A stretch of DNA of 49,610 nt, taken from IMG/VR virus record IMGVR_UViG_3300021960_000115, positions 1 to 49,610 of that record; one strand, written 5' to 3'. Positions 2,666-42,388 of the stretch are shown here, piece by piece. Position numbers and translations under genes: made by a program. The DNA is from a virus. The notes below the pieces were generated by a model that saw nothing but the letters and a program-made list of their open reading frames with translations, searched no databases and had not been told where the DNA came from. Within the stretch, counting starts at the first letter, position 1, and every line of letters starts with the position of its first letter.

Positions 2666-3806
2666 GCGTTACAGCCTTACTGGAGACCCACGTGTCTCTA
2701 TCAAAATATGGATCGGCTGGTGCTTGAAACGGTTCTGTGTTGGTAAACCGCAATTCAGAGTTAAAGTTTTTAGCGATATTTAACTCTGAGTAAAAAGCGT
2801 CTGAATGAATGACGTGCTTCACGCCGCTAACGTACCAGAACCCATCGAAGTCACTCGTGTAACTATCGATATTTACTACTCCTCCGGGCAGGCAGCCGGG
2901 AACTCCTAAGACAGTCACGTCTGCGTAGTAGTCGTACTTGTCTTTAGATAGGGCGTTAATCCGGCGAGTCGCTTCCTCGTAGTTATCTACATATTCAGGT
3001 ATCCTGTTAGGGAACCTAGCCACTCCATTATGTGCTACTTCTAATTGCGTCGAACTAACATCGTACATAGATAGATCTGGATTGAGCACAGGTATGGTGC
3101 TCTCCTTGTACTCACCGTCTATGTGTCGCTTAGAAAAGGTTCCAGAAAAGTCAATTATCTGTCCCGGGTGTACGTTGATTCGGCCCTTACCCTTGACTAG
3201 GGGAGTCAGTTGATGGTAGGAAGTCTGCCTACTGAGAGCGGTATAAGCGTCGTATACGTGAACGTGAGTTCCATGCACATTTACTGCATACCCTAAGAAG
3301 TTCGCATACCTAGTTAAAAACTGCCAATCAGATTCGTTGGTCTGTAGAAGGTTGTCGTGGACGTAGTTATCTTCTGGAACGTCCGCGCTGAACCGGTACT
3401 TAGCCGCCAGTTCTTTCGTTATATCACTTAACTTGTAGCCATTCCAGACTTTGCTAGTGCTACCACGCATGTTATAGGAAGTACCCATGCACACGATCTG
3501 TGCCGTCTGAAAGGGGCTGTCGTTCATCAGGCCGTGCCCCGTGAAGGACGAAGGCCGAACGTCCTCTACGTACCCGTAAAACTTATGGTAGAAGTTGCCC
3601 CCATTAGATACCTCTATTGTTACTGGCTTGTTGTAGTAGTCAGTGATGGCTCTGGGGGGGATTCCGTACATCTCTAGAACCACCATGTCGTGGCGATTCT
3701 CTTCTAGATGAATTTCTATTAGATTAATTGTGTTGTAATCAACAAAAGCATTAGCAATTACAATCTCTATTGACGGTGAGTTACCGTACGGGGTTTTGCG
3801 TATCAT
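2652..3806 (-). CDS. baseplate hub protein (gpD/gp27-like)
   Basis: 384 aa. The pattern matches late-control-D/VgrG-like hub proteins: an N-terminal beta domain, a segment with SDITKELAAKYRFSAD and SDWQFLTRYANFLGYAV (the usual 'open helix then W-x-F-L' region of gpD-type hubs), and a C-terminal beta domain. Such proteins form the trimeric hub at the end of the tail tube. The gene follows the LysM protein with an ATGA overlap, the standard order LysM (gpX-like) then hub. No protease or lysozyme domain is fused to it. Confidence 0.8.
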   Translation of the reverse strand: MIRKTPYGNSPSIEIVIANAFVDYNTINLIEIHLEENRHDMVVLEMYGIPPRAITDYYNKPVTIEVSNGGNFYHKFYGYVEDVRPSSFTGHGLMNDSPFQTAQIVCMGTSYNMRGSTSKVWNGYKLSDITKELAAKYRFSADVPEDNYVHDNLLQTNESDWQFLTRYANFLGYAVNVHGTHVHVYDAYTALSRQTSYHQLTPLVKGKGRINVHPGQIIDFSGTFSKRHIDGEYKESTIPVLNPDLSMYDVSSTQLEVAHNGVARFPNRIPEYVDNYEEATRRINALSKDKYDYYADVTVLGVPGCLPGGVVNIDSYTSDFDGFWYVSGVKHVIHSDAFYSELNIAKNFNSELRFTNTEPFQAPADPYFDRDTWVSSKAVTHEYS

Positions 3807-4045
3807 GTCGGTATGCGGATTACGTCACCAACACTAAGGCCCATTGGAAACTTTAACTGCGGGTTGATGTCCGCTATTTCCCAATAGCGCTCTGTAGTGC
3901 CGAACAGATTGGCGGAAACACGCTCAAGAGTGTCGCCTTCGCGCACGGTGTACAGGGTGTACTTGGCCGTCCCGGTCGGTGTTCTCGTCGCAGTTTGACC
4001 ACCAGCATCCAACTTGTATCTAGATATTGCGTTGTATATAGCCAT
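3803..4045 (-). CDS. LysM-domain baseplate/tail protein (gpX-like)
   Basis: About 80 aa. Nearly the whole protein is one LysM domain (YTVREGDTLERVSANLFG, then YWEIADINPQLKFP and SVGDVIRIPT). In myoviruses a short LysM protein just before the hub gene binds hub and tube (T4 gp53/P2 gpX type). ATG at 4045 was chosen; an in-frame TTG at 4063 would add 6 residues and sit directly against the previous stop codon. GAGG lies 12 bases before the ATG, so the start is not certain. Confidence 0.75.
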   Translation of the reverse strand: MAIYNAISRYKLDAGGQTATRTPTGTAKYTLYTVREGDTLERVSANLFGTTERYWEIADINPQLKFPMGLSVGDVIRIPT

Positions 4046-41128: not shown

Positions 41129-41322
41129 TGTTCCTTATCTAAGTGCCATTCGATGTGGTGGTCAAGTCGCTGGTCGATCTTGTCGACTTTCTTATCAATC
41201 GACTGTAGCACCTCAGAGTTGCGGGCGTGGTCTCGGTTGTTCTCTCTCCGCGTCTTCTCAATCAAGAGGGCGATCAGACCACCGGGGGCGAGGACGGTAG
41301 CGAGGATGCCGAGCCAGTTCAC
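41125..41322 (-). CDS. small membrane protein with coiled coil
   Basis: 65 aa, GTG start in a GTGA overlap. One hydrophobic helix (WLGILATVLAPGGLIALLI) and then a charged coiled coil (EVLQSIDKKVDKIDQRLDHH). Resembles small DUF2746-type phage membrane proteins and holin-like accessory proteins. Could take part in lysis timing; not proven. Confidence 0.6.
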   Translation of the reverse strand: MNWLGILATVLAPGGLIALLIEKTRRENNRDHARNSEVLQSIDKKVDKIDQRLDHHIEWHLDKEQ

Positions 41323-41711
41323 GTCCGAGCCACCAGAGCGGTGGGGACGCCATCGGAGTCCATGGGGGTCAGGTTGTTGTAGGTACTGACGACCAACTTG
41401 CCGTGAACGACGACGGTCTCTGCCAGAGGGGTGGAGGTGAGGAGGGCAGACCGGCTGACGGTGGCCACCAGATCCCAGTCGTACTCTCCATCAGCGAGCC
41501 ACTCGGTGTTGTTGGCGGTCATGGTGAGGAGCAGACCACCCTCTGAGGTGATGGTCACCGGCAGGATGTAGATGGTGCTTCCGATCTTGATGGAGGCGTC
41601 AGCCTCTACGGGGACGCGCTTCCTGCGGGTTCTGCGATCCTTCGGGATAATCAACCGTTCCCAAGGCTCGCCCCGGTCGACGGTGTAGTTCAACACGGCT
41701 CTAGTTGACAT
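41319..41711 (-). CDS. beta-rich structural protein (Ig-like)
   Basis: 130 aa from ATG 41711, chosen because GGAGG stands 7 bases upstream; the frame is open to 41741. KRVPVEADASIKIGSTIYIL, ITSEGGLLLTMTANNTEWLA, DGEYDWDLVATVSRSALLTS. An Ig-like 'linear text then DG-x-Y-x-W-D-L' pattern similar to BppU-type domains and to 32175-32531. First gene of the leftward block. Function unknown. Confidence 0.65.
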   Translation of the reverse strand: MSTRAVLNYTVDRGEPWERLIIPKDRRTRRKRVPVEADASIKIGSTIYILPVTITSEGGLLLTMTANNTEWLADGEYDWDLVATVSRSALLTSTPLAETVVVHGKLVVSTYNNLTPMDSDGVPTALVART

Positions 41712-41827
41712 GGAGCGGCCTCCGTAGTTACTTGCGGACATACATATTATGGCTGATAGATTCTACCTTGGGAGCCTGCTCAGGGGGCCTTTTACTTTTT
41801 CTTGGGGCCTCCTATTGACAGGCTCGC

Positions 41828-41833
41828 TATAAT
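41828..41833 (+). promoter_or_regulatory. -10 box (TATAAT) for the plus-strand gene
   Basis: Perfect TATAAT followed by GG; predicted start near 41840, giving a 130-base leader. The TTGACA at 41815-41820 leaves only 7 bases, so it is not the matching -35; TTGGGG at 41802 would leave 20. Confidence 0.45.
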
Positions 41834-41847
41834 GGAAGTTGTACAAG

Positions 41848-41956
41848 GGAAACGGGAAACGGAGAGAAGCCCTCTGGCCGAGCGCTTGCGCGAGGCCCAG
41901 CCCCCGTAGGGGGCGGGCTAAGGCAGACACCCTGCGGGTGTCTGCGGTTTCCAACC
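41848..41956 (+). ncRNA. structured leader RNA, candidate riboswitch-like element
   Basis: Plus-strand fold seen by eye: hairpin 1 (41874-41900, with inner GCG-CTTG-CGC), hairpin 2 (GCCCCC-GTA-GGGGGC, 41900-41914), hairpin 3 (10 perfect bp, 41923-41945, loop TGC). GTTTCC (41947-41952) can pair with GGAAAC at 41848-41853 or with the tandem copy at 41855-41860, closing all three hairpins into a four-way junction; GGTT-TCC-AACC (41946-41956) competes with this. The SD AAGGAGAAGGT follows at once. It matches no RNA family I know. Confidence 0.5.
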
Positions 41957-41969
41957 ACAAGGAGAAGGT

Positions 41970-42308
41970 ATGTCTGTGGACAAGGTGAAAGAAGGTCGTT
42001 TTCTCATTGGTGAGGACGAGCAGTCCTACCGGACGGTGTCCGAGAAGGTGTACAACGATCCCAACAAGTACCAGATCATCCTTAACGCCAACGGTGGTGT
42101 GAACTGGGCACCGGGAGTGACTCTCAGAATCCCCAACAAGGAGGGGCGCATCGCAGTTCCGCAGGAGTCGGAGACTACCCCGGAACTCATCGCTCGCATG
42201 TTTCCCAACCAGCCCGTACACTTGTACACCGACAACTTCTATAAATGGAACGCTGGTAACGAGGCCGAGGACCTCATCGGCTCACAGGTGTTCATCCCTG
42301 AGCGCTAG
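41970..42308 (+). CDS. LysM-like protein, the only plus-strand gene
   Basis: 112 aa. Two LysM-like units: YRTVSEKVYNDPNKYQIILN with WAPGVTLRIPNKEG (residues 18-62), and TTPELIARMFPNQPVHLYTD with NFYKWNAG and IGSQVFIPER (68-112). LysM units bind peptidoglycan or mediate protein contacts; phage forms occur in wall-associated and virion proteins. Excellent SD (AAGGAG), own -10 box and a long structured leader. It ends directly against the 3' end of the antisense tRNA-like element. Being divergent from all other genes suggests separate timing. Confidence 0.75.
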   Translation: MSVDKVKEGRFLIGEDEQSYRTVSEKVYNDPNKYQIILNANGGVNWAPGVTLRIPNKEGRIAVPQESETTPELIARMFPNQPVHLYTDNFYKWNAGNEAEDLIGSQVFIPER

Positions 42309-42388
42309 TACCGCCAGTAGGAATTGAACCCTCATCCGGTTGTTGATAAGACAACTGGGGACAACCGGTCCCCTTAGGATCTGGCGGC
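42309..42388 (-). tRNA. aberrant tRNA-like element (anticodon possibly UAU)
   Basis: 80 bases. Acceptor 7 bp (GCCGCCA with TGGCGGT, G-U at the first pair), discriminator A, T-arm GAGGG-TTCAATT-CCTAC with one mismatch, anticodon-type arm GTTGT-CTTATCA-ACAAC, D-type arm GGGG-ACCGGTTGT-CCCC. Odd: an 8-base linker (GATCCTAA) between acceptor and D-arm instead of 2, and C at position 37. Read this way the anticodon is UAU (Ile AUA). It could be a decayed tRNA or a tRNA mimic. It lies one base from the tRNA-Leu. Confidence 0.45.

Follow-up and report, generated by a model that had tools for sequence, protein, structure and literature searches.

Structured 5' leaders are known, among them the leader of T4 gene 32 and the 5' UTR of E. 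coli ompA, and the leader described here shares with these two its 5'-terminal hairpins before the ribosome site of a single transcript. It differs from them in having several hairpins, an invariant tandem-GA motif and a place at one divergent phage locus; its relation to them in sequence was compared through Rfam only. Translational riboswitches and leaders of the ribosomal-protein type (Rfam cis-regulatory families) have the same position, together with an alternative pairing that can hide the Shine-Dalgarno (SD) sequence, but the present leader matches no Rfam family and has no conserved aptamer core. The phi29-type pRNA is likewise a phage RNA encoded near packaging genes; here, however, there is again no Rfam match, a ribosome site and an ATG are present, and the phage is contractile-tailed with actinophage-like genes. 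Hairpin leaders are a known kind of element, and what appears new here is the family, its signature and its locus, none of which was found in Rfam or in the literature searched.

The window, that is, the whole stretch of DNA analysed, is the IMG/VR virus record IMGVR_UViG_3300021960_000115, 49,610 bases of an uncultured phage and possibly incomplete. Its minus strand carries the identified genes, including those for terminase, portal, capsid, tail sheath, a B12-type ribonucleotide reductase and a WhiB protein, and the plus-strand gene behind the leader is the one gene opposed in direction to all its neighbours; the locus lies about 1.7 kb upstream of terL. Among cultured phages the nearest relatives belong to the Streptomyces phage BRock group (BRock, LuckySocke and pSt2308), with 44% identity in the terminase (terL) and 60% in the capsid. 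These phages also have a single reversed gene just ahead of terL, at a position comparable to the window locus (L017 5576-5821, L018 5569-5820), but it is annotated as a membrane protein, whereas that of the window encodes a double LysM. The GA-hairpin motif described below is absent from the BRock-group stretches read, no LysM homologue and no cultured relative of the protein were found in the phage collection searched, and a DNA search of cultured phages with leader and gene as query had the tRNA as its sole match. Behind the gene, adjoining tRNA-Leu, lies a second tRNA-like sequence (42309-42388, minus strand) with a 7-bp acceptor CCGCCAG/CTGGCGG and a TTCAATT T-loop. It scored 23.5 bits against the Rfam tRNA cut-off of 29, was missed by ARAGORN and is nearly identical in L004/L042, and it is possibly an unusual or degenerate tRNA.

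Table 1. Positions of the leader, its parts and its neighbours (window coordinates unless a record is named)
Feature	Position	Strand	Remarks
Divergently transcribed gene, locus marker	41319..41741	-	Conserved in all lineages
TTGACA	41815..41820	+	7 bp (8 in clade D) before -10; kept in all leader homologues
-10-like TATAAT + GGAA discriminator	41828..41837	+	TAWAMT-GGAA present in all leader homologues
Leader RNA (5' UTR), structured	41841..41969	+	About 129 nt; fold, conservation
Purine-rich, G-rich 5' tract	41846..41869	+	G-rich 5' tracts also in other lineages
GGAAAC copies in 5' tract	41848-41853, 41855-41860	+	First kept; second altered in L022, L042
Hairpin 1 (GA-hairpin, tandem GA/AG internal loop)	41876..41897	+	GGCC-GA-GCGCUUGCGC-GA-GGCC; covariation, 11 copies
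Hairpin 2	41900..41914	+	GCCCCC-GUA-GGGGGC; identical 15-mer in clade B
Hairpin 3	41923..41945	+	10 perfect bp, UGC loop, 15 nt ahead of ribosome-site GGAG
GUUUCC (GTTTCC)	41947..41952	+	Pairing options: 5' GGAAAC or ribosome-site GGAGA
Ribosome-binding site AAGGAG	41959..41964	+	Within conserved block UUCCA-N2/3-ACAAGGAG
Start codon ATG	41970	+	
Tandem double-LysM protein gene, 112 aa	41970..42308	+	AlphaFold2 model, weak LysM matches
Hairpin-rich arrays with GA-hairpin	L029 3300-3740, L032 3120-3450, L056 380-640	-	Same divergent locus, before different ORFs

The elements that an earlier note on this DNA had described, three hairpins including one of 10 perfect base pairs, tandem GGAAAC and GTTTCC, are all found in the sequence (Table 1). 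The folding energy of the leader is -59.6 kcal/mol, compared with -50.1 kcal/mol for dinucleotide shuffles (z -2.6, 3/200), a repeat run with slightly different ends gave z -2.4, and all nine leader sequences examined are more stable than the mean of their own shuffles (z -1.1 to -3.6). Hairpin 3 is one of six sites in the 49.6 kb of the window with a perfect stem of at least 8 bp, and hairpin 2 may be extended by pairing of 41894-41898 with 41915-41919. Over 41841-41969 no Rfam 15 family reached its gathering cut-off, the best match at a relaxed E-value was RF01097 (16.4 bits, 43 required), and the sequences of relatives yielded tRNAs only; the statement that the leader matched no class known to the earlier reader thus extends to Rfam, relaxed threshold included.

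Homologues were reached through the neighbouring gene. With the LysM gene as query the search returned near-identical records and one diverged one, L004/L042, only, and searching IMG/VR with leader-sequence patterns gave near-identical copies plus the chance matches L007 and L011. The divergent gene proved the better anchor and revealed four further IMG/VR lineages with leaders, here called A (L044, L046, L052), B (L048/L051), C (L049, L050) and D (L054), in each of which a homologous double-LysM gene, 35-46% identical, follows the leader. In a third group (L029/L055, L032 and L056, the last being the same as L016) the same divergent locus carries a related hairpin-rich array with other ORFs behind it; these arrays open with runs such as GGGGAGGGGGGAAAGGGGGGAGGGG, which are G-quadruplex-like. 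L029 and L032 do have the LysM gene as well, farther down the same strand and with a separate promoter-like site 7 bp from its ATG; in L032 a second promoter-like site stands between array and ORF. When bacterial genomes were scanned with the divergent gene, a lone match in Legionella came up, which was rejected as spurious. In L057 (about 3450-4000, minus strand) a long region dense in short hairpins, without Rfam match, lies upstream of an operon containing a LysM homologue; it differs from the leader array and could be another structured RNA.

Because no sound alignment of whole leaders was available (60% identity, large gaps), covariation was tested hairpin by hairpin. In the GA-hairpin set all 11 copies have the invariant core C-GA-GC-loop-GC-GA-G, in which the two GA steps are opposite each other and the loop is GNA or GCUUGC, and outside this core the stems compensate, with 88% of cells paired and a covariation of 0.413 against 0.111 +/- 0.045 in shuffles (0/500 as high) and at most 0.117 in slid controls. 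The CUUG form occurs in the window and L042, and clade B matches neither form exactly. In the last hairpin, aligned without gaps across the window clade (W) and clades A, B and C (a small set of five sequences, row B positioned by its loop), both partners have changed in 6 of 10 pairs, an outcome equalled in 0/500 shuffles, and in clade C it includes G-U pairs. The GNA form of the GA-hairpin core, the 11-nt GAGCGNAGCGA, was looked for in the 17 records from which the loci come and occurs at nine places in eight of them, all in leaders and on the leader strand, where chance predicts about one (10 specified letters, about 0.55 Mb, both strands, equal base frequencies). A dispersed REP-like hairpin repeat was rejected, GAGCGNAGCGA being restricted to the leader locus and not scattered over the genome.

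Between the window and L042 the leader differs at 4/129 positions and the four-fold sites of the gene at 21/45 (Fisher P 4e-11); upstream 11/73 positions differ, and the promoter-like stretch 41815-41840 has 0/26 changes. Half of the four leader changes in L042, C41898T and A41921G, turn mismatches into pairs as read from the sequence, and would lengthen the helix around hairpin 2. L049 and L050 differ at 20/44 four-fold sites, while three hairpins keep 100% of their stem bases and changes are confined to linkers and loops. To judge from these counts the leader is under strong selection, although the low divergence of one phage pair could be mimicked by recent exchange of a short segment. The proposal of a structured leader RNA before LysM-like phage genes is borne out by this selection together with the compensatory changes in homologues, the lack of which the earlier note had named as the contrary outcome and which are present in both the GA-hairpin and the last hairpin.

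The order TTGACA-N7/8-TAWAMT-GGAA, hairpins, ATG is constant in the leader homologues. TTGACA is not the -35 of TAWAMT, since it stands at the short distance given in Table 1; TAWAMT-GGAA may instead combine a -10 and a strong discriminator, with TTGACA as a factor site and transcription predicted to start at about 41840-41842. A facing promoter-like site on the minus strand (CATAAT, about 41748-41753) is also without a clear -35, and the whole arrangement suggests a phage-specific promoter type. A scan with the promoter pattern re-found the known leaders, and its remaining matches were without hairpin leaders; one of them, L068, has a similar promoter-like site and no such hairpin array was seen there. 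No terminator-like site was found on the plus strand from 41600 to the ATG, and transcription attenuation was rejected for a leader without an intrinsic terminator.

The label LysM-like that the earlier note had given to the downstream gene is correct, and the product is more precisely a tandem double LysM. The AlphaFold2 model, made with nine aligned homologues, has a pLDDT of 93 and two strand-helix-helix-strand units; the Pfam LysM match is weak and confined to one homologue (E 5e-4), and among PDB folds LysM proteins come closest, some of them baseplate proteins of phages and injection systems, though with weak scores. The gene keeps 94% amino acid identity despite changes in 44/112 codons, and on this comparison it is under selection as a protein. 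In L029 (960-2228) and L032 (1335-2370), both on the minus strand, the module is reversed and a peptidase-like gene, called VanY-like by eye, stands immediately ahead of the LysM gene, a hint that the product of the latter serves in cell-wall binding or lysis.

It is less clear that the leader has the architecture first proposed for it. The GGAAAC/GUUUCC closing helix is energetically favoured in W and A, and its length in the window is equalled by 48% of shuffles. Across leaders the length of the closing complement is matched by shuffles in 27-85% of trials (exception A2, 2%), at chance level because the leader 5' ends are so purine-rich; the helix is at chance length in 7/8 leaders and missing in clade D. 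As hairpin number also varies by lineage, the four-way junction is not supported as a conserved architecture. The two-state switch built on tandem GGAAAC and a small GGTT/AACC hairpin is unsupported in that neither element is conserved: A41857 is G in L022 and L042, making the second copy GGGAAC, and the hairpin GGTT-TCC-AACC occurs in the window clade only. A riboswitch is likewise unsupported, with no conserved ligand-binding core and with hairpin number and sequence differing between lineages. Three things alone recur across lineages: the core of the GA-hairpin, the last hairpin and a UUCC..GGAG block. In this block UUCC precedes GGAG by 7 nt (8 in W), a spacing kept in four clades; clade D is without the block. 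In four lineages UUCC could, as an alternative pairing, mask the SD GGAG. Energy calculation makes the upstream pairing of GUUUCC dominant in W, W2, A1 and A2 (inner pairs 0.87-1.0) and the masking pairing dominant in C1 and C2, minor in A1 (0.12) and negligible in W, W2 and A2, with W3 mixed (upstream 0.63, masking 0.22). Neither alternative gains covariation support, because the letters of UUCC and GGAG hardly vary. A translational switch via UUCC/GGAG is possible.

Taken together, the locus probably encodes a lineage-specific, cis-acting 5' leader of a one-gene transcript, which would protect the messenger and present its ribosome site. It has the general marks of a structured 5' leader, namely a fold that is conserved, shows compensatory changes and lies immediately upstream of a ribosome site, and this reading is favoured because a promoter-like site precedes the hairpins, no terminator intervenes, the last hairpin is conserved and the gene behind is conserved as a protein. 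A phage promoter would start transcription at about 41841, running counter to the remainder of the genome, and the RNA would begin with the G-rich purine tract, followed by strong hairpins including the GA-hairpin, the fold ending in the 10-bp hairpin 15 nt (13-15 in homologues) before GGAG. The hairpins would shield the 5' end from decay in cis and leave the ribosome site accessible, allowing double-LysM protein to be made in quantity; UUUCC may tune translation by pairing upstream, which opens the site, or with GGAGA, which masks it. What speaks against action in cis is that the arrays of L029, L032 and L056 precede other ORFs.

That same observation is the starting point of the main rival, a stand-alone phage small RNA, acting in trans or binding a protein, with the LysM gene merely downstream. 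An array that stays in its place and orientation as the downstream gene changes, a second promoter-like site behind the array in L032 and a GA-hairpin core invariant in every copy, as would suit a protein-binding site, all fit such an RNA. It is nevertheless unlikely, as in four lineages the leader continues to a ribosome site and ATG at fixed spacing, the plus strand lacks a terminator-like site between 41600 and the ATG, and L029 and L032 still have their LysM gene further along the same strand. Less likely than this stand-alone RNA are two further explanations. A riboswitch or translational switch, in which a ligand or protein sets the partner of GUUUCC (upstream, site free; GGAGA, site masked), could draw on the existence of both exclusive pairings, on the difference between lineages in the dominant one (W, W2, A1 and A2 versus C1 and C2) and on the UUCC-GGAG distance held in four clades; near-invariant UUCC and GGAG without covariation, an upstream complement of chance length in 7/8 leaders, a clade D lacking the block and the want of a conserved aptamer core make it improbable.

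The sequence GCGNAGC is an extra-stable DNA mini-hairpin. Mini-hairpin DNA has been employed for extra stability (PMC4686876). The likeness of the GA-hairpin to it, the G-rich 5' tract and the divergent position upstream of terL would all suit a DNA-level element (a replication origin, or a packaging or recombination site) with hairpins that work while the DNA is single-stranded. This is very improbable: the hairpins are on the strand read from the conserved promoter-like site and lead up to a ribosome site, G-U pairs are present in clade C's last hairpin, and GC skew does not change at the locus, where a replication origin was rejected for want of a skew turn.

Beyond the cis-acting leader, the RNA may have a role independent of the LysM gene, because the array is kept before other ORFs and L032 has its second promoter-like site. 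A tentative and rather doubtful extension is an RNA class defined by the tandem-GA hairpin (GNA or CUUG loop) and G-rich 5' tract at a fixed divergent locus, which a phage or host protein would recognise and which would control whatever cell-wall-related module follows, in some lineages by hiding the ribosome site. Little is known of structured RNAs in uncultured phages. This one was spotted by eye, and it now has the backing of nucleotide-level selection exceeding that on the gene and of covariation between lineages. Its small sequence signature makes further members searchable, and, should the GA-hairpin be a protein site, these viruses or their hosts would have an RNA-binding regulator as yet unknown.
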